Assembly: GCA_945947155.1 (NCBI GenBank)
Contig: CAMEXM010000018.1
Coordinates: 1-33,876 of the forward strand
Reading direction: 5' to 3'
DNA length: 33,876 nt
DNA from: Polynucleobacter meluiroseus
Lineage (GTDB): Bacteria > Pseudomonadota > Gammaproteobacteria > Burkholderiales > Burkholderiaceae
Positions 1 through 20,920 of the stretch are shown piece by piece; position 1 is the stretch's first letter, and the number at the start of each line of letters is the position of its first letter. The notes beneath the pieces were generated by a model. It was not told the DNA's origin. It searched no databases and saw only the letters and a list, made by a program, of their open reading frames with translations. A program made the position numbers and the translations under genes.

Positions 1-504
1 GGAATGCGCCACAACGCAGTTACGATTCTAGAGACTGTCGGTGTCGATGAGTTAGTCGGCCTAAGTAAAATTCATGGTGAAAAGATCATCGAAATGATCA
101 CCTACCTATCAAACAATCCCGATTCCGTTCCTCAAAGCCAAAAAGAGATCGCTTTAGATGGTGCGCTTGCTAGCTCAGCATTGAAAATTGCTATGAAAAG
201 ACACTGTGGCTCGGTAGAGGTTGTTTACACTGCTACCGGTCCAGTGACGGCGCAAGATGGTAAAGACCTGACTCAAATTAAAACCCTGATTGGAACTGGT
301 GGGGTTATCGCCCATAGCAACGATCCCATATCCCTCCTCAAATGCACCCTTTCCTCTGCAGATGAACCTAACTCCCTGAGGCCAATATCACCGCAAATTT
401 TGATAGACAGGGACTACATTCTATTTGCATGCGGTCTTTTAAGTCAGGTTGACCCAAAAGCTGCATTCAACTTAGCAATAGAGCATCTTACTAACAGTAA
501 ATAA
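1..504 (+). CDS. glmL: GlmL/MutL-type mutase-associated ASKHA protein, C-terminal part (5' end outside window)
   Basis: The frame is open from the first base, so this is the last 167 residues of a longer protein (family about 460). The segments EVVYTATGPV, a GTGG loop followed by HSNDP, LRP, and a terminal IDRDYILFACGLL block match the C-terminus of MutL/GlmL. These are ASKHA-fold proteins encoded beside B12-dependent glutamate mutase and thought to act as its repair chaperone. The gene ends 13 bases before the glmE-like ATG, consistent with one operon. The Met at base 4 is internal and not a real start. The small cobalamin-binding subunit (glmS), if present, would lie upstream of the window. 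Confidence 0.8.
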   Translation, partial: GMRHNAVTILETVGVDELVGLSKIHGEKIIEMITYLSNNPDSVPQSQKEIALDGALASSALKIAMKRHCGSVEVVYTATGPVTAQDGKDLTQIKTLIGTGGVIAHSNDPISLLKCTLSSADEPNSLRPISPQILIDRDYILFACGLLSQVDPKAAFNLAIEHLTNSK

Positions 505-517
505 AGAAAATAATATT

Positions 518-1987
518 ATGAGCAATGAAGCGTCCATATCCGAAAAAAGAATTGATGAATCTGAATTTCTTGAAATGCGTAAAGCCAATCTGCTGAGATG
601 GCCAACGGGATCAGGCGTTGATTTTGAGCGCGCATTGGAAAGACAAAAATCACTTCCCGACCACAAAAGACTCGACTTGGTCATGAGAAAAGCAGTTGCT
701 CAGGGCAGGTGCTTAGTCCAACCTCGCGGCGGATTTGGTACCTTTAAAGATCAAAAAGAGCTGATGCAGATCATCGATAAAGAAGGTTTAGCTGACATCG
801 TCCCAACAACAACCGATAGTTACACCCGCAATGAGCAATTTGCGCTGGCCCAAAAAGGCGTTGATGAATCAGAAAAATTAGGCCGTTCACTTTTAAATGG
901 TTACCCAATAGTGAATTATGGGGTTGCAAAAGCCAGCGAACTCATTGATGCAATCGATAAGCCTGCAATTATGCTAACCGGCACCACTATGCCTAAGCTA
1001 ACCGGCGAGATTGGTTTTGCAGCTGGATATACTGGCTACCTCGGATCCGGTATTGCCTACACCACATCCTATATTAAAGAGTTGTCTATCGAAGATGGTA
1101 TTAAAAACTACCAGTACTTAGATCGGCTTTCTGCAATGTATCTTGATCATGGTGTAGAGCTACATCGTCGCCAGCCCAGCTTTTTAACTGGCACCAATAT
1201 ACCGCCTTCAATTGCAATCATTATTGCAATACTGGATTTACTGCTTGCTGCGGCTCAAGGCGTCAAGAATTACGGACTAGAAATGGGTGAAACACTGCAT
1301 CTCATACAAGATGCAGCAGCCGTGAAGGCCTGTAAAGAACTCTGCCAGGAATATCTCAGCATTAAAGGCTACCACGATGTATTTACTCCAATCACGCTGT
1401 TGCATTGGATGGGGGCTTGGCCACAAGATGAAGCGCAAGCAGCCTCTTTAGTGAGTTACGGTGGTACCCTTGCGGCTATTTCTGGAGCAACTTCAGTAAC
1501 CACCAAGACACTGCATGAGGCTTTTGGTATTCCTACTCCGAAAATTAATGCGGATGGCTTAAGAATGACAAGAATGGCCATTTATCTTGCTAGAAATATT
1601 AAATTAGACTCTATGCATGAATTTCAGAATGAAGTCAATTTGATTAAGAGCGAGGTCCGCCCAATCGTCAATAAAGTATTGGAAATGGGCGATGGTGATG
1701 TCGCCCTTGGATCTGTCAGAGCCTTTGAGGCAGGGATCTTGGATATTCCTTGGTCTCCAAATAAATGGGTAAAAAGCAAAGTCATGCCTGCCAGAGATGT
1801 TGATGGCTGCCTTCGAATATTGGATCCAGGCAATATGCCTTTTTCAAAAGAGGTAATGGAATTTCATACTGAGAAACTGAGGCTACGAGCTGAAAAAGAA
1901 AAGCAGCCTTTCGATATAAATCTAGCAGTGTCTAGTGTTTATGAGATGTCTGAATCAATGGAAACGCTTCTGAGCGATAAATGGTAG
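518..1987 (+). CDS. glmE: Glutamate mutase epsilon subunit-like B12-dependent carbon-skeleton mutase, altered active site
   Basis: At 489 residues it matches the full length of methylaspartate mutase E (about 483) and is colinear with it. Recognisable blocks are RWPTG (27-31), QPRGG (68-72), DSYTRN (100-105), LNGYP (126-130), LTGTNIPP, HWMG, KTLHE and GIPTP. In the family this TIM barrel binds adenosylcobalamin with GlmS and interconverts glutamate and 3-methylaspartate. Against the Clostridium cochlearium enzyme as I remember it, the substrate-claw residues R66 and R100 correspond to R70 and R104. R149 and H150 correspond to L153 and T154, and the amino-group ligand E171 to L175. Tyr177 and Tyr181 (here Y181, Y185) and the Lys/Glu pair in KTLHE are kept. 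The fold is secure, but a glutamate substrate is doubtful. A strong terminator follows. Confidence 0.85.
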   Translation: MSNEASISEKRIDESEFLEMRKANLLRWPTGSGVDFERALERQKSLPDHKRLDLVMRKAVAQGRCLVQPRGGFGTFKDQKELMQIIDKEGLADIVPTTTDSYTRNEQFALAQKGVDESEKLGRSLLNGYPIVNYGVAKASELIDAIDKPAIMLTGTTMPKLTGEIGFAAGYTGYLGSGIAYTTSYIKELSIEDGIKNYQYLDRLSAMYLDHGVELHRRQPSFLTGTNIPPSIAIIIAILDLLLAAAQGVKNYGLEMGETLHLIQDAAAVKACKELCQEYLSIKGYHDVFTPITLLHWMGAWPQDEAQAASLVSYGGTLAAISGATSVTTKTLHEAFGIPTPKINADGLRMTRMAIYLARNIKLDSMHEFQNEVNLIKSEVRPIVNKVLEMGDGDVALGSVRAFEAGILDIPWSPNKWVKSKVMPARDVDGCLRILDPGNMPFSKEVMEFHTEKLRLRAEKEKQPFDINLAVSSVYEMSESMETLLSDKW

Positions 1988-2059: not shown

Positions 2060-3868
2060 TTATACGTAATCTTTATACTTTTCCAAGAGACGCACTGGCT
2101 TAGATAAGGCATCGCGACGAAATGGATCGCCGAGTTCGCGTGTACACATAATTTCAATAACACATGTCTTGCCCTCTTTCATTTGCATCTCTACTGCCTT
2201 CTTCAATGCTGGACCAACTTGGTCAAGATCATCAACTACGATACCTTCCGAGCCCATTGCTATTGCCATTCCTGCAAAACTTGGGCTTTCTAATTCACCA
2301 GCTACAAAACGGCGATTGTAGAAATCAACTTGGTTTTTCTTCTCGGCACCCCATTGGCGATTATGGAAAACAATCGCCGTTACAGGAATATCGTGGCGCA
2401 CTGCAGTCATGACCTCCACCATGCTCATTGCCCAAGCACCATCACCGGCATAGGCAATCGCTGGCCTTTCGGGTGCGGCCGCTTTTGCACCAATCATGGT
2501 TGGCAATGCATAACCGCAATTACCAAAACTCATTGGGGCAAAAAAGCTCCGTGGATTTTCAAAACGCAAATAACTGTTTGCAACTGAGTTGATGTTTCCA
2601 ATATCAGTGGAAACCATTACATCGGCTGGCATGGCTTTTTCAAGCTCGCGCAAAACTTGTCTAGGGCTAAGGTAATTGCCACCGGTTGGGGTTTTTTCCT
2701 TTTTTTGCTCTTCAATCATGTCAAGGCTAAATGCATCTCGCTCATGAGTCCACTCATCCAGCTCTTTTTCCCAAGCCGCCTTTTCAGTAGCAATGGTTTT
2801 TGCTCGATCAGCCTTGCTTGCGTCACATGCTAAGGTTTTATTTGCGAGGCGCTGTGTCAGTGCAATGGCTGCAGCCTTCGCGTCTCCGCAAATACCAACA
2901 GAGATCTTCTTAACGAGGCCCAGCATTTTATTGTCAGCATCGATTTGAATAATCTTGGCATTCTTTGGCCAATAATCCATGCCGTGCTGCGGCAAAGTAC
3001 CAAAGGGGCCTAGGCGTGATCCCAGAGCAACTACAACGTCTGCTTGTGAAATCAATTTCATTGCTGCCTTAGAGCCTTGGTAGCCGAGCGGACCACACCA
3101 TAATGGGTGACTTGCTGGAAAGGAATCATTGTGCAAATAGCTATTGACAACTGGGGCGCCCAAACGCTCAGCCAATGCTTTGCATTCTTCCACTGCATCA
3201 CCCATGACAACGCCGCCACCAGAAATAATCACTGGAAACTTCGCTTTAGCTAAGAGTTCAGCAGCTTCATTTAGGCTGTGCTCGCCGCCAGGACCCCGAT
3301 CCAGGCGATTGGGTTGAGGAATCTCAACTTCGATTTCGCCATAAAAATAGTCCCTTGGAATATTCAATTGAGTTGGGCCCATTTCCGACATGGCGCGATC
3401 GAAACAACGGCCCGTATATTCAGCCATCCGCTTTGGATTGTTAACGTGGCCCTGATACTTCGTAAACTCCTCAAACATCGGGAGCTGATTTGCCTCTTGG
3501 AAGCCGCCAAGGCCCATTCCCATCGTGCCTGTTTCGGGGGTAATCATTACCACTGGGGTATGCGCCCAATATGCAGCAGCGATTGCAGTTACGCAGTTGC
3601 TAATTCCAGGGCCATTTTGTGCAATCACCACGCCATGCCGGCCGCTGACACGCGCGTAACCGTCAGCCATATGTGCGGCCCCTTGCTCATGCACTACGGG
3701 AATCAAACGTATGCCTGCTGGCGCAAAAATATCCATCGCATCCATAAAAGCAGAGCCCATAATTCCAAAGATGTCGGTTACGCCATTGGCAGCCATTGTT
3801 TCAACAAAGGCCTCTGAAGGCGTCATTTTTTGTGGGCCTGTTATTACTGCATGATCCGCTTTGGACAT
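2060..3868 (-). CDS. xsc: Sulfoacetaldehyde acetyltransferase
   Basis: This 602-residue ThDP-dependent enzyme converts sulfoacetaldehyde plus phosphate to acetyl phosphate and sulfite in the cytoplasm. It shows the Xsc-specific N-terminal pattern MTPSEAFVET, HEQGAAHMADG with catalytic Glu61, PETGTMGMGLGGFQE, and GPTQLNIPRDYFYG. The ThDP/Mg motif begins with GDG at 475-477 and ends at N503. Length is normal. The ATG has a GGAG site seven bases upstream. It is a single gene, convergent with glmE and divergent from cobS. Acetolactate synthase was considered, but the conserved blocks fit Xsc much better. Its presence implies that sulfoacetaldehyde is made by the cell. No phosphate acetyltransferase gene, which often accompanies xsc, is in the window. 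Confidence 0.92.
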   Translation of the reverse strand: MSKADHAVITGPQKMTPSEAFVETMAANGVTDIFGIMGSAFMDAMDIFAPAGIRLIPVVHEQGAAHMADGYARVSGRHGVVIAQNGPGISNCVTAIAAAYWAHTPVVMITPETGTMGMGLGGFQEANQLPMFEEFTKYQGHVNNPKRMAEYTGRCFDRAMSEMGPTQLNIPRDYFYGEIEVEIPQPNRLDRGPGGEHSLNEAAELLAKAKFPVIISGGGVVMGDAVEECKALAERLGAPVVNSYLHNDSFPASHPLWCGPLGYQGSKAAMKLISQADVVVALGSRLGPFGTLPQHGMDYWPKNAKIIQIDADNKMLGLVKKISVGICGDAKAAAIALTQRLANKTLACDASKADRAKTIATEKAAWEKELDEWTHERDAFSLDMIEEQKKEKTPTGGNYLSPRQVLRELEKAMPADVMVSTDIGNINSVANSYLRFENPRSFFAPMSFGNCGYALPTMIGAKAAAPERPAIAYAGDGAWAMSMVEVMTAVRHDIPVTAIVFHNRQWGAEKKNQVDFYNRRFVAGELESPSFAGMAIAMGSEGIVVDDLDQVGPALKKAVEMQMKEGKTCVIEIMCTRELGDPFRRDALSKPVRLLEKYKDYV

Positions 3869-3930
3869 ATGGAATCTCCGTTAATGGGTTAAAAATTACG
3901 CACTTAATGAATGAGCTTTACTCTGGAATC

Positions 3931-3974: not shown

Positions 3975-4093
3975 AATTAAAAATAAGCAAGAAATTAGGG
4001 AAATCCCGATGTTTAATCTATTAAGTGGAATGATATCGCTTATATATTCGAACAATCCCTGACTAAAATGAAATAACACTACCTGGAATCAAC

Positions 4094-7599: not shown

Positions 7600-8772
7600 T
7601 TATGCAGATTCATACAGACGAGTCATCACAAACTCACGATGGCCCAGAATCTCAGCTGCAGTTAATTCGCCATTTGCAGTGCGCAATAGGGAATCAATCA
7701 GCTTTTCTCCAGCCGAATCCAGCGTTTCCTCTCGGCGTAACAAGCCAGATACATCCACATCAATGTGCTCTGACATCAGACGTACTGTTCTTGGGTTGGC
7801 GCATAGCTTAATAACCGGAAGGATTGCATTACCGATCACATTGCCCTGCCCGGTTGGGAAGAGGTGTGCAGCAAATCCAGAGGCTGCGCACAATGTCACC
7901 ATCTCAGCCGCAGCGGAAGAGGAGTCCATAAAGTGCAGTCCTGGAATGGTAGGCGTTTCTGCCTTATCCAGCACGCCATCCACAATGCATTTCTTACCGA
8001 TTTTCTGAATATTGCCTAAGGCTTTTTCCTCAATCGTTGTCAAGCCACCCGCAATATTGCCCTTGGTTGGCTGTGAATCCGACAAATCACTAGTTTTATT
8101 GCGCTCAATAACCCCTTGGTAGCGATCAAACATATCGCGAAACTTCTTTTTGATCTCAGGAGTACGGCAGCGGGCTTCTACTAAGTGCTCACCACCTGTT
8201 AATTCGGTTGTCTCACCAAACACCAATGTGGAGCCAATTTCATACAGGCGATCAAATGCATTCCCTACTGCCGGATTGGAAGCGCAACCCGATGTTGTAT
8301 CGGATTCGCCGCATTTGGTTGAAACCCAAAGCTCCGATAGGGGTGCTGAAACACGCTGCTGCTTTGATGCATGCTTGACCATTTTGTAAGCCGATTTACT
8401 GGCTGCAGTGATGGTTGCCGTATCGCCATTGCCGCTGATCCAAAAACCCTCCACTGGTTTGCCGGACGCTTTAATACCTTCTACTACCTTGCCAGTCCAC
8501 TGACTCTCAATACCAATCACCACTACTGCTGCCACATTCGGGTTACAGCCAGCACCAATTAGGGTGCGAAAATGGAGGTCTAAGTCAGCGCCAAACTGCA
8601 AACGGCCATATGGGTGTGGAATTGCAATAGCACCTTTGATGTTATTGGCAACTGCCTCACAGGCTGCATTGGATAGGTCATCCAAAGGCAGGATAACAAC
8701 GTGATTGCGAATACCCATGCGTCCGTTTTCACGGCGATAGCCCATAAATGTTGCTTCTTTTAAATTGATCAT
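7600..8772 (-). CDS. suyB: (R)-Sulfolactate sulfo-lyase, large subunit SuyB (UxaA family)
   Basis: The UxaA C-terminal-type subunit works with SuyA to split 3-sulfolactate into pyruvate and sulfite. It has the family opening [17 protein letters not shown], plus [23 protein letters not shown] and the late HLFPTGQGN block. These resemble altronate/galactarate dehydratase domains with conserved metal-site cysteines. I chose ATG 8772 (390 residues), which has GGAAAG seven bases upstream. The upstream TTG at 8787 overlaps that ribosome site and is unlikely. It lies 39 bases behind suyA. Other UxaA dehydratases are possible, but the pairing with a SuyA-like small subunit, two sulfolactate-type dehydrogenases and xsc supports SuyB. 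Confidence 0.83.
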
Positions 8773-8811
8773 CTTTAATCTTTCCAAGTAAATAAGGTTG
8801 CAAAAACTGGA

Positions 8812-9093
8812 TTACCAGCGCTTGGTCTTTACGTTTTGAACGTGGAGGTGCTCCCCTTTTTTGATGGGTGCAACCACTTTTCCAATATCGACGCCATATT
8901 TAATGACCGTATCACCAGCAACCAAGGGCTTTAATGCAATCTTGTGCCCGATTGGAATATCACTCTCAGACTTAATCGTTAAAGTAGTGTCGCCTTCCAT
9001 TACCCAGCCAGTTAACTCCGTTCCAGCTTTAATGTTTTCGACTACCACTACACCAACAACATCTCCTGGCTCATGCACGACAAAGTGGATCAT
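8812..9093 (-). CDS. suyA: (R)-Sulfolactate sulfo-lyase, small subunit SuyA (SAF domain)
   Basis: This 93-residue SAF-domain protein has the SuyA pattern FVVHEPGDVVGVVVVE, LTGWVMEGD, IPIGHKIALK, KYGVDIGKV and the C-terminal HVQNVKTKRW. It is the small subunit of sulfolactate sulfo-lyase; the SAF module is thought to help bind substrate or metal in UxaA-type enzymes. The start is secure: a perfect AAGGAG lies six bases before ATG. It sits 29 bases after comC. A separate small SAF subunit next to a UxaA-like large subunit also occurs in other hydro-lyases, but the sequence fits SuyA closely. Confidence 0.85.
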   Translation of the reverse strand: MIHFVVHEPGDVVGVVVVENIKAGTELTGWVMEGDTTLTIKSESDIPIGHKIALKPLVAGDTVIKYGVDIGKVVAPIKKGEHLHVQNVKTKRW

Positions 9094-9122: not shown

Positions 9123-10133
9123 CTACTTCGCCCAATTCCGACGAATGCCGGATTGAATTTCTTCCAGTACCGCATCTGCAACATCAATTCCCCCATCCAA
9201 TGCATTGGCTCGCTGTTTAAAGCGACGCTGCCCTGGTAAGCGAACGCCTACATCAGCGGCCAGTGTCTTTAAAAAATCGCTCATGCGATTTGCAAACATC
9301 TGGCTACCGGCAAGACCTGGATCTATGGTCAATAGAAGCTGGCCAATACGGGGGCGATTGCCCTGCGCATCAAAGAAAGAGTCAGCTTCGTATGAAAAAC
9401 GGCTCCCCGATAATCCGACAACGAGCAACTCCACAATCAATGCCAATAAAGCACCTTTATCTCCACCCATCGGAACCATCAAGCCTTTGAGGCCTTCGTT
9501 TGGATTGGTGGTTGGTTTGCCGTCTATGGTTAAAGCCCAGCCCTCCGGTATTGACTCGCCTTTTTTTGCAGCTACGAGTAACTTGCCACGCGCTACAGCA
9601 GACAAGGACATATCAATCACAAGGGGGTTTGCTTTAGCAACTGGAAATGCAGCTGCCAAGGGGTTGGTTCCAAAGATGGCTTTACTGCCACCTACCATTG
9701 GCATGGCCGCGGGGGTATTACCAAAGATCAGTGAAATATACCCAGCACGCGCAGCCGCTTCGGTGTAATGACCTGCGACACCAAAATGGTGGCTATTGGT
9801 AACAGCTACAAGCCCTACGCCATTTTTGGAGGCTAAATGAACCGACAAATCGGTTGCCAGTTTTAGTGCTGGAAACGCAAGGCCATCGCATGCATCCACT
9901 AAGGCAGCGGCCGTTTTAAAGCGCTTTACCCGCGGCTTTGCTTTGAGCTCAATGCGGCCATTCATGGCGTGTCCAGCATATTGCCCGACGCGAGCCAAAC
10001 CATGCGATGCCAATCCATCCGCCTCAGCTAAAGCCAAAAATTCGGCAGTTTCGATTGCTGCTTTACGATCAATGCCGCTCGCTCGCAAACCAGACGATGC
10101 CAACTCCACACTCTGATCGAATGTCATCTTCAT
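9123..10133 (-). CDS. comC: Ldh2/MdhII-family dehydrogenase, probable (R)-sulfolactate dehydrogenase ComC
   Basis: The 336-residue NAD(P)-dependent 2-hydroxyacid dehydrogenase belongs to the Ldh2 (malate/L-lactate/sulfolactate) family. Visible blocks are ASHGLARVGQYA, VTNSHHFGVAGHYTEAAARAG with the family's conserved His region, FGNTPAAMPM, GTNPLAAAFP and the late PGQRR. In sulfolactate degraders ComC reduces sulfopyruvate to (R)-sulfolactate, the form used by SuyAB. The start codon overlaps the slcC stop by four bases (ATGA), so the two are coupled. With SlcC it would act as a two-enzyme racemase. A malate or ureidoglycolate dehydrogenase role cannot be excluded by sequence alone; context decides. 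Confidence 0.78.
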   Translation of the reverse strand: MKMTFDQSVELASSGLRASGIDRKAAIETAEFLALAEADGLASHGLARVGQYAGHAMNGRIELKAKPRVKRFKTAAALVDACDGLAFPALKLATDLSVHLASKNGVGLVAVTNSHHFGVAGHYTEAAARAGYISLIFGNTPAAMPMVGGSKAIFGTNPLAAAFPVAKANPLVIDMSLSAVARGKLLVAAKKGESIPEGWALTIDGKPTTNPNEGLKGLMVPMGGDKGALLALIVELLVVGLSGSRFSYEADSFFDAQGNRPRIGQLLLTIDPGLAGSQMFANRMSDFLKTLAADVGVRLPGQRRFKQRANALDGGIDVADAVLEEIQSGIRRNWAK

Positions 10134-11065
10134 TTACTGTTCCCCAAAAACCGATTTACCTCATCTGCAATCATCTGACTAACGCGGTCATTGCTCTCGC
10201 TTGTAACCCCAGCAATATGTGGCGTTGCAATGAGATTGCTTAATCCAGCAAAGTGAGAGAGGTCTGTCGCAGGCTCTTTTTCAAAAACATCCAAAGCTGC
10301 ACCGCCCAAGCGGCCAGAGCGCAGACGCTCAGCCAATGCTTTCTCGTCCACAATGCCTCCGCGTGCGGTATTAATTAAGCAGGCGCCGTGCTTCATTTTG
10401 TCCAAGGTTACCGCGGAAAATAGGCCGCGGGTTTCTGGCAAGAGGGGTAAGTGCAAGCTAACGGCATCACTGGATGCCAACAAGGTATCTAGCGTTACAA
10501 GCGGGACGGCAGAGCCGCCAACATCGATTGATGTACCAGACAGCATAGGATCATAAGCTAGGCATTTCAAACCAAAGGCAAGGGCCTTTTGTGCCGTTAC
10601 TCGGCCAATACTTCCAAAGCCAACTACGCCCAAGGTCTTACCGGTGAACTCATGGTACCCAGAAAAATGCGGGCGTGGCCAGCTACCACCTAAGGTTTGG
10701 ACTGTTGCCGGCAAAAAACCACGCGTCAATGCTAAGGCAGCACCGATGACATACTCTGCAACCGACTCTGCATTCGCACCGGTTGCTGGGATAACCTTTA
10801 TATTGCGCTGCGCACATGCAGGCAATTCGATGTTTTCTAGACCGACGCCAAGGCGACCCACCACTTTTAGGTTCGGTGCGCCATTTAAGAGCTCTTGATT
10901 GACTTGAGTCAAGTTACGAACAATGAGGGCATCACAATGCTGCAATGCAGAAATTAATTCTGTACGCTGTTTGTAGCTATCCGGGGCGTAAATAACCTCA
11001 TGGCTAGAACGGAGGGTTTCTAGGGCTTGACTTGTAATGAATTCGGAGACGAAAATAGAGGACAT
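10130..11065 (-). CDS. slcC: D-isomer-specific hydroxyacid dehydrogenase, probable (S)-sulfolactate dehydrogenase SlcC
   Basis: The protein belongs to the SerA/D-2-hydroxyacid dehydrogenase family and has 311 residues from ATG 11065. The NAD-binding motif GFGSIG is at 149-154, and the catalytic triad is R235 (NTARGG), E264 (FEKEP) and H283 (TPHIAG). It would oxidise (S)-sulfolactate to sulfopyruvate, which ComC then reduces to the (R) isomer. The upstream TTG at 11107 would add 14 residues that do not resemble the family. ATG 11065 lacks a Shine-Dalgarno sequence, but a good promoter places transcription start at or next to it. It is the first gene of the suy operon. Confidence 0.78.
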   Translation of the reverse strand: MSSIFVSEFITSQALETLRSSHEVIYAPDSYKQRTELISALQHCDALIVRNLTQVNQELLNGAPNLKVVGRLGVGLENIELPACAQRNIKVIPATGANAESVAEYVIGAALALTRGFLPATVQTLGGSWPRPHFSGYHEFTGKTLGVVGFGSIGRVTAQKALAFGLKCLAYDPMLSGTSIDVGGSAVPLVTLDTLLASSDAVSLHLPLLPETRGLFSAVTLDKMKHGACLINTARGGIVDEKALAERLRSGRLGGAALDVFEKEPATDLSHFAGLSNLIATPHIAGVTSESNDRVSQMIADEVNRFLGNSK

Positions 11066-11100
11066 ATCTATATCATATAGATGATTTAGATGTCTTGCAA
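11066..11100 (-). promoter_or_regulatory. slcC-suy operon promoter with operator palindrome over the -10
   Basis: On the minus strand, TTGCAA (11100-11095) and TATGAT (11077-11072) are separated by exactly 17 bases, a good sigma-70 promoter. The inverted repeat ATCTATA-TCA-TATAGAT (11082-11066) covers the -10 and ends one base before the slcC ATG. Repressor binding here would block polymerase. The expected transcription start falls at about 11066-11064, so the mRNA would be leaderless or nearly so. The likely binder is the GntR/UTRA protein encoded at the end of the operon. The rest of this 141-base divergent region, toward 11206, has no clear promoter hexamers for the Bug gene. Confidence 0.55.
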
Positions 11101-11206
11101 TACCCAAGTCTTTTTTTAGTTTTCCCTGTATTGTTAACGAATTACAAAAGTAAAAAGCGCCAAAAAAATAAAGGTGTTTTAGAATTTAAATCAACGGGAG
11201 AGATGC

Positions 11207-12196
11207 ATGTTTACGAAGCAGACTAGTTCTATTAAAAGAAATGCCATCAAGCTGTTTGGCTTGATACTCATTGCGGGTGTTAGCACTGTGGCACAAGCGC
11301 AAAGCTGGCCAACGAAACCAATCAAATTAATCATACCGTTTGCCGCAGGTGGCACAACCGACATTTTGGGACGCATCCTAGCCCAGCAAATGACTACTGT
11401 ACTGGGTCAAAATGTGATTGTTGAAAATCGCGGCGGTGCCGGCGGCAATATCGGAGCTGAGGCGGTAGCAAGATCCCCAGCGGATGGCTACACACTGCTA
11501 TTGGCCTCAGGCAGCATGCTTACCGTCAATCCATACATGTACAAAAAGATGAATGTAAATTATGGAACCGACTTTTCGCCTATTACTACTTTAGTTAGTG
11601 GCCCGATGATTATTTCTGTTAACCCGAAGTTGGGGGTAAAAAACTTAAATGATCTAATTGCCTTAGCCAAAACACGCAATCTCAATTTTGGTTCTGCTGG
11701 TATCGGTAGTCAGGTTCATTTGGCTGGAGAAAATTTCATTACAGCTGCAGGAATCAATGCCACCCATATTCCATACAAAGGGGAGGCAGCTGCGCTAACC
11801 GATTTAATCGCTGGGCAAATTGATTTTTGTGCCTGCAATGTGCCAGCGTCAACGGGCTTCATTCGAAATGGTCAGATCCAAGCGCTTGCAGTTACAAGTG
11901 CTAAACGCCTGGCCCAGCTTCCAAACATACCTACTGTTTCAGAGGCATCACTGCCAGGATTTGAAAATGTCGGTTGGTTTGCTTTAATGGCCCCATCCAA
12001 CACACCAAAAATCATCCGCGAGAAAATTTATGATGCTGCAGTGAAGGCCGTCAAAACAGAAGCGATGCAGAAGAGCTTAGAAATTAATAGCCTGACGCCA
12101 ATTCTTAACACCACCAAAGAACTAGAGGCACAAATTGCTTCCGAATCGACAAAATGGGAAAAGGTGATTAAGGCCCGTAACTTAACTGCCAATTAA
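11207..12196 (+). CDS. Bug/TctC-family periplasmic solute-binding protein
   Basis: The 329-residue protein has a signal peptide: a basic start, a hydrophobic stretch (about 15-29) and likely cleavage after AQA at 32, just before QSWP. The mature protein has the Bug hallmarks WPTKPIKLIIPFAAGG, NRGGAGGN and ADGYT, and the central HIPYKG. Bug proteins bind small carboxylates such as dicarboxylates or aromatic acids and deliver them to tripartite tricarboxylate transporters. No TctA or TctB membrane gene is in the window, so this is an orphan binding protein, as is common in Burkholderiales. ATG 11207 has GGGAG five bases upstream. Its position suggests it captures the hydroxyacid or sulfonate used by neighbouring enzymes. 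An intrinsic terminator follows. Confidence 0.88.
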   Translation: MFTKQTSSIKRNAIKLFGLILIAGVSTVAQAQSWPTKPIKLIIPFAAGGTTDILGRILAQQMTTVLGQNVIVENRGGAGGNIGAEAVARSPADGYTLLLASGSMLTVNPYMYKKMNVNYGTDFSPITTLVSGPMIISVNPKLGVKNLNDLIALAKTRNLNFGSAGIGSQVHLAGENFITAAGINATHIPYKGEAAALTDLIAGQIDFCACNVPASTGFIRNGQIQALAVTSAKRLAQLPNIPTVSEASLPGFENVGWFALMAPSNTPKIIREKIYDAAVKAVKTEAMQKSLEINSLTPILNTTKELEAQIASESTKWEKVIKARNLTAN

Positions 12197-13928: not shown

Positions 13929-15362
13929 TTGGTCGAGAAAGCCAATTCCCTCCTTGTCGAGTTTGCCGATGCCATCGGAGAAGAATACGTACTCAGCAAG
14001 GATGAGGATAAAGCGCCTTATCTAACCGATTGGGGCAAGCGCTTTAAGGGAAATGCATTGGCTATTCTTCGGCCAAAAAATACCAGCGAGGTTGCAGCCC
14101 TTGTCAAGGTATGCAAGCGCCATCGAGTACCGATAGTCCCTCAAGGAGGAAATACCGGACTTTGCGGCGGAGCAACTCCCGACGCAAGCGGACATGCTGT
14201 CGTCATTTGCCTGCGTCGATTGAATCAGATTAAGCCACCAGACTTAGAAAACGCTACTATTACTGTGGGTGCTGGCGCTGTACTGAAGCATGTTCAAGAG
14301 GCCGCCTTTCTGAAAAATAGGCTTTTCCCCCTGAGTTTAGCTGCAGAAGGCAGTTGTACGATTGGTGGAAATTTAGCCACCAATGCAGGCGGAGTTCAAG
14401 TTCTTCGATATGGGAATATGCGAGACCTTACTCTAGGTCTTGAAGTCGTTACTGCAAACGGTGATATCTGGAATGGGCTACGCGGTCTTCGAAAAGACAA
14501 TACTGGCTATTCACTAAAAGACCTCTTTATTGGATCGGAAGGTACGCTTGGCATCATTACTGCAGCCACCTTAAAGATTTTCCCATTACCTAAAACAAAG
14601 ATCACAGCACTTGTAAAGGTGAATGATGCTGCATCCAGTATTGCCTTGTTACAGCAAGTGCAAAAAGTCTGCAGCGCCGATTTAACGGCATTTGAATTGA
14701 TCTCAAGCCGAGCAATTGAATTAGTCGCTGATCGATTTATGTTGGCTCAGCAACTACTGCAAGATCAGGCCGATTGGATTGTTTTAATCGAGCTCTCCAG
14801 TATGGATTCCGAAGAAAAAATTAGATTAGATATTCAAAATCTATTGATGGACGCCATGGATTCTAAGCTGGTTTTAGATGGCATTGTAGCGGATTCTATT
14901 CAGCAATCCAAAACAATGTGGGGAATTCGGGAAACCATCCCAGAGGCTCAGCTCCAACTTGGAAACGTCATAAAACATGACATCTCTCTCCCGATTTCAG
15001 AGTTGAGTAAATTTATCCAAACTACGAATGCAAAGTTAAAAAAAACTTGGCCCGATATCGACATTATTGTCTTTGGTCATGTCGGAGACGGTAATCTGCA
15101 TTACAACATAGTAGGCATGAATCTTGAAATATCTGCACTCCTAGAAAATAGACGGGGCGAGATAAATCAGCTGGTACACGACCAAGTGTATCTGCATAAT
15201 GGATCTTTTTCGGCTGAACATGGCATTGGGCAGGCGAAGGTAACGGAATTAACCGAGCGTAAATCTTCTGTTGAAATGACCTTAATGAGGGCCATTAAAA
15301 AAAGCTTAGATCCACTTACCGTCATGAATCCAGACAAGATATTTTTACGAGATCCTGACTAG
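13929..15362 (+). CDS. FAD-linked 2-hydroxyacid oxidase, GlcD/D-lactate dehydrogenase type
   Basis: The 477-residue flavoprotein has a PCMH FAD-binding domain with PQGGNTGLCGGATPD (71-85), GGNLATNAGG and GSEGTLGI. The C-terminal cap carries the metal-site motifs HVGDGNLH (384-391) and EHGIG (430-434) and ends in MNPDKIF. Relatives oxidise D-lactate, glycolate or D-2-hydroxyglutarate and pass electrons to quinone or cytochrome. SlcD, a sulfolactate dehydrogenase of marine bacteria, is as I recall of this type, so sulfolactate is a possible substrate. The start is TTG 13929, two bases after the ThDP gene stop, with AAGAG upstream; no ATG or GTG lies between the in-frame stop at 13887 and it. 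Its 3' end overlaps the convergent tauE by 18 bases. Confidence 0.82.
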   Translation: MVEKANSLLVEFADAIGEEYVLSKDEDKAPYLTDWGKRFKGNALAILRPKNTSEVAALVKVCKRHRVPIVPQGGNTGLCGGATPDASGHAVVICLRRLNQIKPPDLENATITVGAGAVLKHVQEAAFLKNRLFPLSLAAEGSCTIGGNLATNAGGVQVLRYGNMRDLTLGLEVVTANGDIWNGLRGLRKDNTGYSLKDLFIGSEGTLGIITAATLKIFPLPKTKITALVKVNDAASSIALLQQVQKVCSADLTAFELISSRAIELVADRFMLAQQLLQDQADWIVLIELSSMDSEEKIRLDIQNLLMDAMDSKLVLDGIVADSIQQSKTMWGIRETIPEAQLQLGNVIKHDISLPISELSKFIQTTNAKLKKTWPDIDIIVFGHVGDGNLHYNIVGMNLEISALLENRRGEINQLVHDQVYLHNGSFSAEHGIGQAKVTELTERKSSVEMTLMRAIKKSLDPLTVMNPDKIFLRDPD

Positions 15363-16115
15363 CTTCGGTACTTCCTTCAGCAATAGCATCGATCCTGAAA
15401 AAAGCAAAATGCTTCCATAGATAGTGAGAATCTTTGAACTACTTAGTTTGCTATGTACTTTAGAGCCAGCCCATAATCCAAAAATCATTGGTAAAAGCAT
15501 GCAAATGGCCAACACCATGACGTCTAAATGCAAGAGTAATTCCGCTACAAGCATGAATACAAATCGCATTGCCGTCAAAATCAAAATTGCAAAAGCCATG
15601 GTAGCTCTTAGCATGCGGGGATCCCTCATGCGCATTTCCAGATAGGATGCATAAATTGCACCCCCGGTAGCAAACAATGCCGTAAAGATGCCGCCAAAAA
15701 ATCCAAATGGCATTGCCCACCATTTATAAATAGGGGTCCGAAGTTCTACTTTTTTCTTCGTTAGCACCCTAGTTCCATTCGCTCCAGCAAATATTCCTAA
15801 AATAATCAGCAAGGGTTCGCTTGGCGCGTTAATCAATAGGGTAATACCAATAACCATACCTACTACGGTAAACGGAAATAACCAAAGCAGTTCCTTTTTA
15901 TCCGCCTCATTAGAGGATTTCCGGCCCAAATATAAAGAGGCGCAAATATCCATTAGAACCATCATGGGAACTACCGTTGTTAATGGAAATAGTTGAACCA
16001 ATAAGGGCACCGCAACGATGGATGAACCAAATCCAGATATGCCGAATATAAAATAAGCACAAAAGATAATAAGTACCGCAAGCGTTAGCGGTATGGGCTG
16101 CAGAATTTCTAAAAT
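15345..16115 (-). CDS. TauE/SafE-family anion (sulfite) exporter with apparent ATT start
   Basis: This hydrophobic, multi-spanning permease of the TauE/SafE family has 256 residues if started at ATT 16115. From the GTG at 16010 it would have only 221 residues and would lose the first membrane helix. The in-frame sequence upstream of that GTG encodes FGISGFGSSIVAVPLL, the conserved N-terminal TauE motif, so translation must begin further upstream. No ATG, GTG or TTG exists between the in-frame TAA at 16121-16119 and that motif. ATT 16115 has an ideal AGAAGG six bases upstream. TauE-like proteins export sulfite or organosulfonates, which fits the desulfonation genes. The gene is last in the SDH-like operon, 28 bases after the flavoprotein. 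Confidence 0.8.
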   Translation of the reverse strand: MLEILQPIPLTLAVLIIFCAYFIFGISGFGSSIVAVPLLVQLFPLTTVVPMMVLMDICASLYLGRKSSNEADKKELLWLFPFTVVGMVIGITLLINAPSEPLLIILGIFAGANGTRVLTKKKVELRTPIYKWWAMPFGFFGGIFTALFATGGAIYASYLEMRMRDPRMLRATMAFAILILTAMRFVFMLVAELLLHLDVMVLAICMLLPMIFGLWAGSKVHSKLSSSKILTIYGSILLFSGSMLLLKEVPKLVRIS

Positions 16116-16143: not shown

Positions 16144-17880
16144 TTAAGCTAATTCCTCAACCAGAATAGTTTCACCGGGCTTTACACGATTAAACAATAC
16201 AGGTCTATTTTCAATCAGTAACTGGGCATTGAATAGCTTTACCGCAGTAAAGTAGGATGTATCTAATTCGCCTGGCTCCGGAAAGTCTTCACGGTAATGG
16301 GCGCCACGTGAATTCTCGCGGGCAATCGCAGCCTCAGTAACCGATTTGCTCACCAAAATTAGATTACGTAAATTCATCCAATCTTGCCACGTCAGGTTGT
16401 ATGCCCTTTGCAAATCACCTACACCCATCTGATTTAGAGAGCGCTCCAAGTCATCCAACTTTGTACGGGCCCGCAGCAAGCTTTCTTTGCTACGTGAGAT
16501 ACCAACGTCATCCCACATCACCTCAGCTAGCGCATCGCGTATGAGCTCAATATCCCCCGGTGCACGCTTTAGCGGCGCCTCATGCGCCTCGATGCTGGCC
16601 GCCACTTCCGCCATATTGCACTCTGCTAAAGGTTGATTTAAGACCCACTTGGCCATGACATCGCCGGCAATGCCACCAAACACCGTAGAGTTAGCCACAC
16701 CATTACCGCCTAAGCGATTAGCACCATGTACTCCACCCGTATCTTCACCCGCTGCAAATAGTCCTGGTAAATCGGTGCTGCAATCCGGCTTAAATACTAG
16801 GCCTCCCATCATGTAATGTGCGGTTGGAACCACTTCGACCATGTCCTCGGCCAAATTAAATCCGCTATCGGCACAGCGCTCAACCATTCCTTTAAATAAT
16901 TTCCGTACGGTATCTGGGCCGAGGTGACTCATTTGAATATAGACACCGCCATTTGGCGTTGCTCGCCCTGCCCGAATCTCGGAATTAATCGAACGCGACA
17001 CAATATCGCGCGTTGCACGCTCATTGCGCGCATCGTAATTACCCATGAAGCGCTCTTTATTGCCATTCAGCAAATATCCACCAGCCCCACGCAAACCTTC
17101 CTCAAGAACGGTACCGGTCATGCGCGTTCCAGGGCCAGCCAAGAGACCCGTTGGGTGAAACTGCACCATCTCCATATCGCGCAATACCAAACCAGCTCGC
17201 AGTGCCATCGCAAGACCATCGCAACTCTTATCACCCGATGGGGTGTGGTACTTGTACATGGTTGGGCCACCGCCGGTGGCAAGCAACACCGCCTTAGCAC
17301 GCACCAATGTAAATTCACCATTCTGCATATCCAGCATTAAAACGCCTGCAAGTGATTTACCATCTGCGCTATGAATCAACTCCACGGCACGGAATTCCTC
17401 GAGGCGGTGGATGCCGCGTGCCCATACCTGCTCAGCCAAGCGATTGATAATTTCAATGCCGGTTAAATCGCCTTTGTGCACAGTGCGATCAAAAGTCTGT
17501 CCTGCGAAGGCCTTTTGGTGAATCGTACCATCGGGATTGCGATCAAAAAAGCATCCCAACTCATTCTCAAGCTCTCGAATACGCTCAACTGAAATGCTCG
17601 CTAGGGTCCATGCTAAATCCTGATCGCATAACCATTTACCGCCTTCGATGGTATCCATAAAATGGCGCTCTACCGAGTCTCCTTCCGCCAAGGCCACGTT
17701 ATACCCGCCCTGAACCATGCGTGTGCATCCGCATTTACCTAAAAGGCCTTTAACCGCAATCGTAATGTGCAAATTGGGGTTGGTTTGATGCGCATGCAGG
17801 GCCGCAAAAAGACCGGCTCCACCGGAACCCAAAATTAAGATGTCGGTTTCAAGGGTTTTTATATTGAGGGGTGCATTCAT
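16144..17880 (-). CDS. Succinate dehydrogenase/fumarate reductase-like flavoprotein lacking the covalent-FAD His
   Basis: The 578-residue protein has the dinucleotide motif GSGGAG (18-23), QFHPTG (H242), EEGLRGAGG (R264), NERATRDIVSRS (R291 in the position of the catalytic Arg), HYMMGG (H355) and HGANRLGGN (R389). These keep the dicarboxylate site of SdhA/FrdA. The residue that carries FAD covalently in SdhA is a His in SHTxxAQGG; here the motif is GCTRMVQGG with C52 in that place, so FAD is probably non-covalent. That usually lowers the flavin potential and favours fumarate reduction over succinate oxidation. The start overlaps the stop of the hydro-lyase beta gene (ATGA). It must pair with the sdhB-like protein encoded five genes upstream. 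Confidence 0.82.
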   Translation of the reverse strand: MNAPLNIKTLETDILILGSGGAGLFAALHAHQTNPNLHITIAVKGLLGKCGCTRMVQGGYNVALAEGDSVERHFMDTIEGGKWLCDQDLAWTLASISVERIRELENELGCFFDRNPDGTIHQKAFAGQTFDRTVHKGDLTGIEIINRLAEQVWARGIHRLEEFRAVELIHSADGKSLAGVLMLDMQNGEFTLVRAKAVLLATGGGPTMYKYHTPSGDKSCDGLAMALRAGLVLRDMEMVQFHPTGLLAGPGTRMTGTVLEEGLRGAGGYLLNGNKERFMGNYDARNERATRDIVSRSINSEIRAGRATPNGGVYIQMSHLGPDTVRKLFKGMVERCADSGFNLAEDMVEVVPTAHYMMGGLVFKPDCSTDLPGLFAAGEDTGGVHGANRLGGNGVANSTVFGGIAGDVMAKWVLNQPLAECNMAEVAASIEAHEAPLKRAPGDIELIRDALAEVMWDDVGISRSKESLLRARTKLDDLERSLNQMGVGDLQRAYNLTWQDWMNLRNLILVSKSVTEAAIARENSRGAHYREDFPEPGELDTSYFTAVKLFNAQLLIENRPVLFNRVKPGETILVEELA

Positions 17881-18488
17881 GATTCGATTCCTAAGCTTTT
17901 GAGTACATCAACCTTGTTTCGTGCAACGTCGCTTTTGACTTCCTGATAGATGCTGCCGCCATGGCTATCCATCGCCACCAGCAAGGGGCCAAAATCATGG
18001 ATCTTGAAACGCCATAAGGACTCTGGATTAAGGTCATCCATATCGACGTCTTCGATTTGCTCGATCCAGGTGGTTTCGAGAGCGGCCGTGCCGCCAATAA
18101 TTGCTAAGTAAACACCGCCTAGCTCTGCAAACGCCTTAGAGGAACCTTCGCGCATTCCGCCTTTACCCACGATCATGCGTACGCCATTCTGCGTCATTAG
18201 TGGTTGGGTAAAGCGCTCCATGCGATCGGAGGTGGTTGTACCGATGCAAATCGGCTCGTACCCCGCTGGAAATTCAGCGCTAACTGCTACCTTACGCACG
18301 TTTGGGGCGGTATGAATGACGGCGTGGCCAGTCAAATCAAACTTCGTCTTGCGACCGTGATCAAACATATGAATCTGGGTTGCGTCGCGAATACCAAAAA
18401 GGGTGTTTTGTAGCGTTACCGTATCGTTGATTTTTAAGCGGCGGATATCGGACTCGCTTACAGGGGTAGGTAAATAGTAATGTGCCAT
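17877..18488 (-). CDS. Class I (Fe-S) hydro-lyase beta subunit, fumarase/tartrate dehydratase/mesaconase family
   Basis: This 203-residue swivel-domain subunit shows FDLTGHAVIHTAP, GTTTSDRME and VGKGGM (K109 region), then PESLWRFKIHDFGPLLVAMDSHG as in fumarase C-terminal domains and TtdB. The usual RDxxH motif reads RDATQIH here, so Gln replaces the conserved His, and the usual GPTTS is GTTTS. The alpha subunit lies eight bases upstream. Two-subunit class I enzymes hydrate fumarate, mesaconate or dehydrate tartrate; size alone does not separate these. The SDH-like partners point to a fumarate-like substrate. Confidence 0.8.
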   Translation of the reverse strand: MAHYYLPTPVSESDIRRLKINDTVTLQNTLFGIRDATQIHMFDHGRKTKFDLTGHAVIHTAPNVRKVAVSAEFPAGYEPICIGTTTSDRMERFTQPLMTQNGVRMIVGKGGMREGSSKAFAELGGVYLAIIGGTAALETTWIEQIEDVDMDDLNPESLWRFKIHDFGPLLVAMDSHGGSIYQEVKSDVARNKVDVLKSLGIES

Positions 18489-18496
18489 TGCTCTTC

Positions 18497-19372
18497 CTAA
18501 AATCCGTACTCAACACCATTCGGCGTAAAGGTGGCACGCGCACGCCTTGCCGAATGGCATTGCATATTGACAGCGACCGGATTCATCGTAATGTGGGTTG
18601 CGGCCAATTCGACATGAACTGCAAACGCAGTACCATCACCACCTAAGCCTTGCGGCCCAATACCAAGGCGGTTAACCGCAGCACTCAGCTCTTGCTCAAG
18701 CTTTGCACCCTCGGCATCGGCACAGCTACTGCCTATTGGGCGGGTAGCAGCGCGCTTAGCCATCGCCACACACTGATCCGAGGTTCCGCCAACGCCGACA
18801 CCAACGATGGTTGGTGGACAGGTTTTTCCACCCGAAGCAACCACACTCTCAATTACAAATGCTTTAACACCCAAAATACCTTCTGCAGGAATAGCCATCT
18901 TCAGATAGGAGTTGTTCTCTGAGCCACTGCCCTTGGGAATCATTTCAATCTCAGCCACCTCATTGTCAGAACTAAAATCAAGGTGTATCGCCGGCATATC
19001 AATGCCGCAGGAGGTGTGGTTATTCTTGCGGGTGATGGGATGCACCACCGAAGAGCGGAGTGGATACTCCGTAGTAGCCCGTTCACACCCTTTACGAATG
19101 GCGGCCTTCAATGCCATGCCATCGAATTCAACATTACGGCCAATCTTGACGTTATAGATCGGCAGCCCCGTATCCTGGCACAGTAAATTATCTTCGCGCT
19201 CTGCTACGGCGATGTTTGTCACCATGGTCTGCAAGACAACCTGAGCACGCTGATCAGTCTCAGATTGATTCAAACGGTCGATGCCTTGCTTTACGTCGTC
19301 TGGCAATTTTTTTAATGCACGGATATATAGCTCCTTGCATGCCTCTTCTACTAAGCTCATCTGTAGCTGCAT
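18497..19372 (-). CDS. Class I (Fe-S) hydro-lyase alpha subunit, fumarase/tartrate dehydratase/mesaconase family
   Basis: The 291-residue subunit carries the oxygen-sensitive [4Fe-4S] cluster. Ligand candidates are C65 in LLCQDTGLP, C185 in GGKTCPPT and C272 in MQCHSAR. Other family blocks are HPITRKNNHTSCG, IPKGSGSENNS and LGIGPQGLGGDGTAFAVHVE. With the beta subunit it would add water across a trans-2-enedioate such as fumarate or mesaconate. It lies 11 bases after the membrane cytochrome gene and inside an SDH-like operon, so oxidation/reduction and hydration steps are probably consecutive. L-tartrate dehydratase is the main alternative. Confidence 0.82.
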   Translation of the reverse strand: MQLQMSLVEEACKELYIRALKKLPDDVKQGIDRLNQSETDQRAQVVLQTMVTNIAVAEREDNLLCQDTGLPIYNVKIGRNVEFDGMALKAAIRKGCERATTEYPLRSSVVHPITRKNNHTSCGIDMPAIHLDFSSDNEVAEIEMIPKGSGSENNSYLKMAIPAEGILGVKAFVIESVVASGGKTCPPTIVGVGVGGTSDQCVAMAKRAATRPIGSSCADAEGAKLEQELSAAVNRLGIGPQGLGGDGTAFAVHVELAATHITMNPVAVNMQCHSARRARATFTPNGVEYGF

Positions 19373-19383: not shown

Positions 19384-19743
19384 TTAGCCCGCTAAGGCTA
19401 AAAATAAAAGGCCAGAAATAATCGAGAGAACGATAGCTGCCTGAATCCAGCCCTTACGTAATCCGCGCCATGTTCCAAACTCAATCATGAGGAGGCGAAC
19501 GCCGCCCACCAGATGAATTGTTAATAGCGTCACCAAACCCCACTCACCTGCTTTCACCGCCCAAAAATCAGTCAGTTTTAAATAGTGATCAAGCTCATCG
19601 GCACCGAAGAGGGACTGGGACAATAAAAAGAAATGGATGGGCAAAAAACAGGCGAGCAATAAGCCTGAAACCCGGTGCGCCATATAAATGAAATAAGACA
19701 GATGGGATTTAGCGCGGTGATCCAGTGTTGGTCTATTGCTCAT
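19384..19743 (-). CDS. SdhC-like cytochrome b membrane anchor subunit
   Basis: The 119-residue protein has three hydrophobic segments (about 17-46, 66-85, 95-118). It shows the SdhC signature SYFIYMAHRVSG near the N-terminus and HLVGGVRLLMIEFG in the second helix, where His is the probable haem b ligand. It would anchor the flavoprotein and Fe-S subunits and pass electrons to or from quinone. Its start overlaps the stop of the preceding membrane subunit by four bases, so the two subunits are translationally coupled. Confidence 0.72.
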   Translation of the reverse strand: MSNRPTLDHRAKSHLSYFIYMAHRVSGLLLACFLPIHFFLLSQSLFGADELDHYLKLTDFWAVKAGEWGLVTLLTIHLVGGVRLLMIEFGTWRGLRKGWIQAAIVLSIISGLLFLALAG

Positions 19744-20096
19744 CGCCCTATTCCGCCCCTAAAGACCCCAATTACGGCAGCAGTCCCCAATCCCAATATC
19801 AGAGTCGCCAAGACCCAAGGGAGTACGCTCACTCCGGATGAGCGCGGGAAGTTTTCACGCAAAATATTAGCCAAGCCAATCGGTGCATGGACCAAACAAG
19901 CCAAAACAAAGACTTCATAAAAAATAGCAAAAAACCAATTGCCCTGCGTGCGGCCTAAGATTTCACCGGCAGTAAGGCCACCCCGGATGGCGTAAAACAT
20001 AATGAATAAATGAATCGCCACACATAAACCCAAGACCATGGCACTGATGCGCTGGGCATACCAAAGCTTTGCTTGCAATATCGCGCTTCCATGCAT
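19740..20096 (-). CDS. SdhD/FrdD-like membrane anchor subunit
   Basis: A small protein with three hydrophobic helices. The first begins YAQRISAMVLGLCVAIHLF, like the QR-S and His motif of SDH/FRD anchors, and a second helix carries VHAPIGLANIL. It is the partner of the SdhC-like subunit. I chose ATG 20096 (118 residues), nine bases after the sdhB-like stop. A GTG at 20120 would add eight residues and overlap sdhB; neither has a convincing ribosome site, so the start is uncertain. Confidence 0.7.
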   Translation of the reverse strand: MHGSAILQAKLWYAQRISAMVLGLCVAIHLFIMFYAIRGGLTAGEILGRTQGNWFFAIFYEVFVLACLVHAPIGLANILRENFPRSSGVSVLPWVLATLILGLGTAAVIGVFRGGIGR

Positions 20097-20104
20097 CGCA
20101 GTGC

Positions 20105-20836
20105 TCACAACTTGCCCCACTTGGTGCCACGCACAGCGGCTCTAGCTACTAGCTTTTTCAATCCAGCAATACCAGCGGTCGGCTCTAGCTGCTTAGGGCA
20201 GCGCTCTGTACAGCTACCATGCGTATGGCAGGTATGGCAACCGGCATCGCCAGCCACCGCACGTAGTCGATCTAATTGCTGCGTATCACGTACATCGTTA
20301 GTCAGGGTCCAGGCGCGATTAAGTGCGGCCGGTCCTAAATAATTGGAGCGACTCGCCACCACATCGCATGATGCATAACAGACGGCACAGCCAATGCATT
20401 CAATACCCGCATTGGCTAACTGCCGCTCCTCTGAATCTGGCTTTACGATTGCAAAATCATCGTGGCGCGTTTGCTCGCCTTTGAAAAACCCAACTGCTCC
20501 TTTCCACTTATTGAAGAACTCACGCATATCGGTTGCAAGGTCTTTAATAACGGGTAAGTTATTCAGTGGCGCTATCTCGAGTGAATCGCCCTCCACAATC
20601 TTTGCTACATGGGTACGACAGGTCCAGCGGGCCACACCATTTACTGTCATGGCACACGAACCACACATCCCCACTCGACAAGCAAAACGATAGCTCAGCG
20701 TTGGATCTAATTTACGCTGAATGTAGGTAACCACATCGAGCACGGTTTGATTGGAATTACGCGGCACAAGGTATTCAACAAACTCGCCTTGCTCGGTTCC
20801 ACGCCAGACTTTGACTTTAAGGTTTACTTTAGACAT
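20105..20836 (-). CDS. Succinate dehydrogenase/fumarate reductase-like iron-sulfur subunit
   Basis: From ATG 20836 it has 243 residues. The N-terminal [2Fe-2S] plant-ferredoxin domain has C53, C58, C61 and C73 (FACRVGMCGSCAM). The C-terminal domain has CIGCAVCYASC (147-157) for [4Fe-4S] and CHTHGSC then ERCPKQLEP (203-218) for [3Fe-4S], spaced as in FrdB. It wires the flavoprotein to the membrane quinone site. The longer open frame to 21037 overlaps the LysR gene and the promoter region and has no family similarity, so I rejected it. It is the first gene of the operon and divergent from the LysR gene. Confidence 0.88.
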   Translation of the reverse strand: MSKVNLKVKVWRGTEQGEFVEYLVPRNSNQTVLDVVTYIQRKLDPTLSYRFACRVGMCGSCAMTVNGVARWTCRTHVAKIVEGDSLEIAPLNNLPVIKDLATDMREFFNKWKGAVGFFKGEQTRHDDFAIVKPDSEERQLANAGIECIGCAVCYASCDVVASRSNYLGPAALNRAWTLTNDVRDTQQLDRLRAVAGDAGCHTCHTHGSCTERCPKQLEPTAGIAGLKKLVARAAVRGTKWGKL

Positions 20837-20854
20837 GCCAAAATTATATCGGGG

Positions 20855-20912: not shown

Positions 20913-20920
20913 ATGAGCCC

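Follow-up and report, generated by a model that had tools for sequence, protein, structure and literature searches.

The window, by which we mean the whole 33,876-nucleotide stretch of Polynucleobacter meluiroseus DNA analysed here, opens with the end of a reactivase gene and a gene for a glutamate mutase-like protein, and carries genes related to sulfonate and dicarboxylate metabolism farther along:

1..504, + strand, C-terminal part of GlmL (reactivase), truncated by the contig end (NF040745, 3.9e-42, partial)
518..1987, + strand, predicted GlmE-like large subunit of a B12-dependent mutase (TIGR01503, 461 bits, cut-off 390)
725..727, + strand, codon of R70, equivalent to R66 of glutamate mutase, the upper claw Arg, kept
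827..829, + strand, codon of R104, equivalent to R100, the lower claw Arg for the acrylate half, kept
974..979, + strand, codons of L153-T154, equivalent to R149-H150, lost
1040..1042, + strand, codon of L175, equivalent to E171, the amino-group anchor, lost
1058..1060, + strand, codon of Y181, equivalent to Y177 of glutamate mutase, kept
1169..1171, + strand, codon of R218, equivalent to E214; Arg throughout the clade
2060..3868, - strand, Xsc, sulfoacetaldehyde acetyltransferase (TIGR03457, 1066 bits, cut-off 676)
7600..9093, - strand, SuyB/SuyA-like sulfolactate sulfo-lyase pair (SuyB-like: GD_AH domains)
9123..11107, - strand, ComC-like and SlcC-like sulfolactate dehydrogenases (NF040650, 214 bits, below the cut-off of 500; Ldh_2 and 2-Hacid_dh domains)
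11207..12196, + strand, TctC, substrate-binding protein of a tripartite tricarboxylate transporter (PF03401, 235 bits)
15345..16010, - strand, TauE/SafE sulfite exporter family (PF01925, 84 bits)
16144..17880, - strand, SDH/FRD-like flavoprotein with an altered pocket (E. coli H45 to C, T254 to E, short insertion)
17877..19372, - strand, class I fumarase-like beta and alpha subunits (TIGR00723 just below cut-off, TIGR00722 over it)
19384..21037, - strand, SDH/FRD membrane and iron-sulfur subunits (Sdh_cyt, the second below cut-off; TIGR00384 over cut-off)

According to passages of PMC10947579, the glycyl moiety in glutamate mutase is gripped by the upper claw arginines R66 and R149 with E171 at the amine, R100 and Y177 bind the acrylate fragment, and Y181 is close to the methylaspartyl radical. 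The window protein is a TIM-barrel subunit of the GlmE type in which R66, R100, Y177, Y181, K326 and E330 of glutamate mutase are all retained, in line with an earlier note on this DNA that had read both arginines, both tyrosines and a Lys/Glu pair as kept. The same note had R149-H150 replaced by L153-T154 and E171 by L175, and these readings were borne out; E214 is additionally replaced by R218. L153, L175 and R218 are invariant in all rows (38/38) of an alignment of the window and 37 related loci, from which L010, L032, L036 and L040 were omitted as incomplete. The arginine claw is thus incomplete, with Leu at the R149 position and R66 and R100 present, and the amino-group anchor E171 is missing. 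Leu stands at both sites in all 40 loci that cover the region, and R218 is found in 41/41. In the window GlmE the acrylate half of the site is intact, R149 and E171 are gone from the three residues named as holding the migrating glycyl group, and an arginine (R218) is gained. With the acrylate ligands kept and two glycyl ligands lost, the migrating group should differ and is not expected to be an amino acid any more; the radical chemistry can stay the same. Chance or sequencing error as a cause of the substitutions was ruled out by the agreement of the 38 rows, and a dead gene by the intact frame together with the conservation across the clade.

The 41 related loci are found in MAGs labelled as alpha-, beta- or gammaproteobacteria (or subgroups of these) or plainly as proteobacteria, and in one labelled just Bacterium. 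In a maximum-likelihood tree that also includes 11 GlmE-type proteins from outside it, the mutase group forms one side of a single branch (100/99), the group comprising 39 rows (the window and 38 loci, with L032, L036, L040 and the fragment L047 omitted) and several of the other branches being very long. Whether proteins with Leu at both positions form a clade, as had been asked earlier, can thus be answered in the affirmative. The five GlmE proteins that adjoin a methylaspartate ammonia-lyase (L050-L054) have R-H, E and E at the corresponding positions. The divergent homologues L046 and L056 also deviate at some pocket positions, which indicates that changes to the pocket arose repeatedly in the broader family. 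Members of the clade are rare: in the class sample, 6/369 genomes have a TIGR01503 match at E <= 0.001, and the window's own genome alone lies over the cut-off. Overall, this is a real and conserved clade, whose members the family model TIGR01503 would misname. One record among the loci, L004, is titled Bordetella parapertussis; its mutase groups with those of environmental betaproteobacterial MAGs, and it is probably a mislabelled bin.

DNA of the relative L002 matches C11:34091-39265 and then positions 1-517 of the window contig (C18:1-517), with about 40 query bases shared. Because this match spans both contigs, the window start is very probably preceded by contig C11. C11 carries a GntR gene, an enolase-superfamily gene, an MDR reductase, TctC, GlmS and the start of GlmL; the GlmS protein scores 174 bits with TIGR01501 (cut-off 136), and the GlmS and GlmL that belong to a glutamate mutase are therefore both present. 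The nearest PDB entry to the enolase-superfamily enzyme is 1jpm, an L-Ala-D/L-Glu epimerase, and the nearest to the MDR reductase are quinone oxidoreductase 1qor and 2-haloacrylate reductase 1wly. Farther upstream on C11 are SauS (NF047625, 738 bits, cut-off 600), an AMP-binding ligase, a Pta-type enzyme and a three-subunit molybdopterin oxidoreductase, which we take to be SoeABC.

The earlier note had proposed to look upstream for methylaspartate ammonia-lyase as well as for glmS. The lyase was seen in none of the locus stretches (0/41) and was not found in the window's own genome (93% complete). It occurs over cut-off in 4/41 carrier genomes, in each case away from the mutase locus, and the 5-11 kb around it showed no canonical GlmE in any of these four. 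Among eight comparison loci, taken from 30 plasmid records with a GlmE-type match, five (L050-L054) adjoin the ammonia-lyase and three (L055, L056 and L057) are without it, the L055 GlmE lying beside NRPS-type genes and L056 being unannotated; an ammonia-lyase neighbour is therefore no fixed mark of an ordinary GlmE. On the Roseibium plasmid of L055, positions 3533-5527 encode a long GlmE-type protein, next to which are a gene with an adenylation domain and one for an amino acid racemase, with a GlmS-like match in the same stretch; this long protein is perhaps a biosynthetic mutase. The suggestion made earlier, that the mutase acts on a substrate other than glutamate and without the amino group, gains support from the predicted pocket residues, the clade and the missing ammonia-lyase, with the reservation that 4/41 carrier genomes have the lyase elsewhere.

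For the most part, the genes surrounding the mutase make up a set for sulfonate catabolism. With Xsc the window encodes a desulfonating enzyme, as organosulfonate catabolism requires. The SuyB-like protein is 75% identical to a UxaA-family hydrolase from a Cupriavidus pinatubonensis plasmid, and both it and the SuyA-like protein match galactarate dehydratase below cut-off; the names SuyB/SuyA for the 7600..9093 pair, and SlcC for the dehydrogenase within 9123..11107, are our assumption. Between Xsc and the sulfolactate genes, at 4094-6847, lies a cobaltochelatase-type pair made up of an AAA protein resembling CobS and a VWA protein resembling CobT, both under their curated cut-offs (451/559 and 180/759 bits); the pair is thus close to the gene of a B12-dependent enzyme. 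At 12290-15362, beside TctC and the sulfolactate genes, there is an acetolactate synthase/hydroxyacyl-CoA lyase-type TPP enzyme together with a GlcD-like FAD oxidase.

The sulfonate and dicarboxylate neighbours, which the earlier note had taken as a hint to the substrate, retain that value over the wider set of loci. In tblastn searches with the reference proteins as queries (E 1e-12, with identities down to 22-30% for some matches), the neighbours among the 41 loci are TctC (21), an enolase-superfamily enzyme (20), MDR (13), SauS (12), SdhA-like (9), SucC-like (7), Xsc (6), TauE (5), SucD-like (5), FumB-like (5) and FumA-like (4) proteins. Xsc, SauS, SuyA or SuyB are inside only 19/41 stretches, and many contigs are short. 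At the genome level the link is strong, Xsc over the curated cut-off being present in 34/41 carrier genomes vs 21/369 of the class sample (own genome included), where at most 3 candidates per class-sample genome and at most 24 per carrier were scored, so that some Xsc of the sample may have been missed. Three of the seven carriers (7/41) without Xsc over cut-off (G407, G401 and G394) have partial matches, which were left uncounted. The Fisher test gives p ~1e-28 with the own genome excluded, a value that is a guide only, as the test assumes independent genomes (L002, L003, L033 and L034 are close kin of the window) and sets carriers from three proteobacterial groups against a sample of one class.

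The sulfonate genes are placed differently from lineage to lineage. In the alphaproteobacterial branch (L020, L021, L022, L027, L029 and L039) the tblastn match to SauS starts 97-162 bases past the GlmE match, SucC is next after SauS in 5/6 of these loci, and the SauS of L027 scores 774 bits with NF047625 (cut-off 600). Polynucleobacter-type loci have Xsc downstream of GlmE on the opposite strand, SauS is located beyond TctABC in L010 and L042, and in L030 ComC-SuyB-SuyA adjoin GlmE, again on the opposite strand. Since the arrangements vary by lineage, they suggest repeated functional coupling rather than a single inherited island, and part of the sulfonate linkage could reflect shared islands of sulfonate generalists. 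Among the matches listed, no title or abstract opening refers to a glutamate-mutase-like enzyme in sulfonate metabolism, the subscription literature being mostly outside the scope of the search.

Some other genes recur near the mutase. Upstream of GlmS, L022, L027, L029, L039 and L021 carry differing combinations of TcuA (tricarballylate dehydrogenase), PrpF and PrpD homologues, and a trypsin-like protein and AzlC also precede the mutase operon in these loci. In L063, a BKACE enzyme (3-oxoadipate:acetyl-CoA acetyltransferase model, 451 bits, cut-off 350) and a GMC oxidoreductase at 4408-6858 are near a SulP-like transporter, an acyl-CoA ligase and SauS of the same genome. DapA/NlpB, PBP-like and DUF1847 neighbours were set aside as apparently unrelated or present in few loci.

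Relatives of the window SdhA, FumA or FumB with more than 55% identity are found in 8/41 stretches. The SdhA-like match starts 14 bases after GlmE in L038 and 23 bases after it in L004, and L016 has the order GlmL-GlmE-FumB-SdhA-SlcC-ComC on a single strand, with a broken SdhA frame. The own genome has another SdhA, which scores 914 bits vs 338 for the window SdhA, and a second class I fumarase, so the window copies are not the housekeeping enzymes; the FumC C-terminal domain was not found in this genome. Cys replaces E. coli H45 in the window SdhA and its close relatives in 9/9 rows covering the site, Glu replaces T254 with an adjacent short insertion in 7/7 rows, and H242, E255, R286, H354 and R399 are kept; the distant L024 SdhA is ordinary. 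We assume the usual roles for these residues, H45 presumably being the flavin-linking His in E. coli. Replacement of the flavin-linking His by Cys favours reduction over oxidation, and the Cys may therefore argue for the reductive direction, a point against the oxidative step proposed below. The SucCD-like neighbours are changed as well. The GIV motif of SucC and a Tyr of SucD sit at the succinate carboxylate in succinyl-CoA ligase, as passages of PMC11489063 describe, and the corresponding positions hold GAF in 6/6 SucC-like proteins and Thr in 5/5 SucD-like proteins covering the site (the L010 SucC is truncated). These motifs fit neither ordinary SCS nor HpfYZ, so that the substrate of the ligase may differ.

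The invariant residues, the single clade, the lack of an ammonia-lyase at the locus and the enrichment of Xsc together indicate that the clade enzyme is most likely a B12 mutase of organosulfonate breakdown and not a glutamate mutase, and the SdhA-like and SucCD-like neighbours with their changed substrate-site motifs are counted for the same reading. Judged from gene context, the substrate is probably sulfonated. The best explanation overall, which we regard as somewhat likely on the sequence data, is that GlmE and GlmS form a mutase, dependent on adenosylcobalamin, that has been adapted to a sulfonated carboxylic acid. Such an enzyme would retain fragmentation-recombination through acrylate, Y-CH2-CH2-COO(-) <-> CH3-CH(Y)-COO(-), with the migrating Y no longer CH(NH3+)COO(-); the best guess is Y = SO3(-), that is, a migrating sulfite radical. 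Release of sulfite from a radical beside a C-S bond is the chemistry of glycyl radical sulfite-lyases. If dehydrogenation and hydration are to give sulfolactate, the starting compound would be 3-sulfopropionate, and with this as the linear partner Y would be SO3(-) and the branched partner 2-sulfopropionate. The interconversion of 2-sulfopropionate and 3-sulfopropionate is accordingly put forward as a tentative candidate for the specific reaction. In this scheme the enolase-superfamily enzyme would act as epimerase on the chiral branched acid, much as methylmalonyl-CoA epimerase does alongside its own mutase, the altered SDH would convert 3-sulfopropionate (a succinate isostere) to sulfoacrylate, and the fumarase-like pair would hydrate sulfoacrylate to 3-sulfolactate (a malate isostere), whose breakdown SlcC/ComC, SuyAB and Xsc would complete, with TauE exporting the sulfite.

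3-Sulfopropionate is described as a product of sulfoquinovose/DHPS fermentation by Enterococcus gilvus in passages of PMC11489063, where a thesis is cited according to which Roseovarius degrades 3-sulfopropionate via sulfoacrylate and sulfolactate. 2-Sulfopropionate is not named in the literature retrieved on 2-/3-sulfopropionate and hence has no known natural supply, which speaks against the specific reaction. The proposed reaction also leaves SauS and the SucCD-like ligase in the alphaproteobacterial operon unexplained; these point to sulfoacetate or another thioester. It is tempting to speculate, more hesitantly still, that a B12-dependent sulfonate mutase moving a sulfite radical opens a route for branched sulfonates via 3-sulfopropionate, sulfoacrylate and sulfolactate, with a patchy distribution among alpha-, beta- and gammaproteobacteria.

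If the substrate were another sulfonated acid, which we consider unlikely, this would account for the presence of SauS and SucCD-like genes within the mutase operon and for the homologues of TcuA, PrpF and PrpD that some alphaproteobacteria carry. The acid could be 4-sulfobutyrate, interconverted with 2-methyl-3-sulfopropionate by migration of the sulfomethyl group, or a sulfo-dicarboxylate such as 2-sulfoglutarate, interconverted with 2-methyl-3-sulfosuccinate, the product being dehydrogenated, hydrated and cleaved to pyruvate and sulfoacetate. However, there is no C-C lyase among the neighbour families annotated, which represent part of the neighbours; the loss of the claw Arg suits three negative groups badly, and SlcC/ComC in L016 indicates a C3 product.

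A mutase of plain dicarboxylates, converting glutarate to methylsuccinate or free methylmalonate to succinate and back, with the sulfonate genes as mere neighbours in a generalist, appears quite improbable. Methylsuccinate would continue through methylsuccinate dehydrogenase, mesaconase and citramalate, and in this respect it is relevant that genes of the SDH and class I fumarase type accompany the mutase and that class I fumarases are able to hydrate mesaconate, as stated in passages of PMC4682846. Yet the excess of Xsc in carriers (34/41 vs 21/369) would remain unaccounted for, the SdhA-like pocket is unlike that of SDH, the citramalate-cleavage references from L052 match weakly (CaiB, 28-35% identity, 2/41) or not at all (CitE, 0/41), and the next genes in L016 are sulfolactate dehydrogenase homologues. 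A mutase of 2-hydroxyglutarate or 2-oxoglutarate, with the glutamate skeleton and OH or C=O in place of the amino group, would suit the loss of E171 taken alone, but it would still need R149 for the alpha-carboxylate, which is lost in 38/38 rows, and would leave the sulfonate context unexplained, so that it is very improbable. That the enzyme is a glutamate mutase after all, with a different binding mode, as its family name of methylaspartate mutase, its score over the TIGR01503 cut-off and the ammonia-lyase somewhere in four carrier genomes might imply, is hardly credible given the clade-wide loss of R149 and E171 and the lack of the lyase in all 41 stretches, with none found in the own genome either.

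To our knowledge few B12 mutases that rearrange free acids have been described, and every new substrate of such an enzyme shows more of how the radical is controlled. Members of the clade satisfy the methylaspartate mutase model although they lack the glutamate pocket, which amounts to a systematic mis-annotation. If the mutase acts on a sulfonate, the organic sulfur cycle would gain a step that depends on B12, and the enzyme would show which sulfonates bacteria meet besides taurine, isethionate and sulfolactate.

The HpfXYZ system of Enterococcus gilvus uses a CoA-acylating aldehyde dehydrogenase and a SucCD-like ligase on 3-sulfopropionate, and similar gene types occur in the mutase operons; the passages of PMC11489063 that deal with HpfXYZ describe no mutase alongside, and the SucC motif of the clade is GAF, not GIN, so that the substrate may differ. 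Compared with GlmES of Clostridium cochlearium (EC 5.4.99.1), R149, H150, E171 and E214 are replaced by L, T/S, L and R in the clade, whose loci are without an ammonia-lyase nearby and have a sulfonate gene context. The methylaspartate pathway, with GlmSLE, MAL, a class I fumarase-type mesaconase and citramalate cleavage, resembles the clade loci in having an enolase-superfamily enzyme near the mutase and, in some of them, a class I fumarase-like hydratase. In contrast to that pathway, the enolase-superfamily enzyme of the clade resembles dipeptide epimerases and muconate cycloisomerases and not MAL, and an SDH-like dehydrogenase, SauS, Xsc and TauE are found around the mutase. In its overall design the proposed reaction would be the sulfonate counterpart of methylmalonyl-CoA mutase with its epimerase, in which a branched and a linear three-carbon acid are likewise interconverted.
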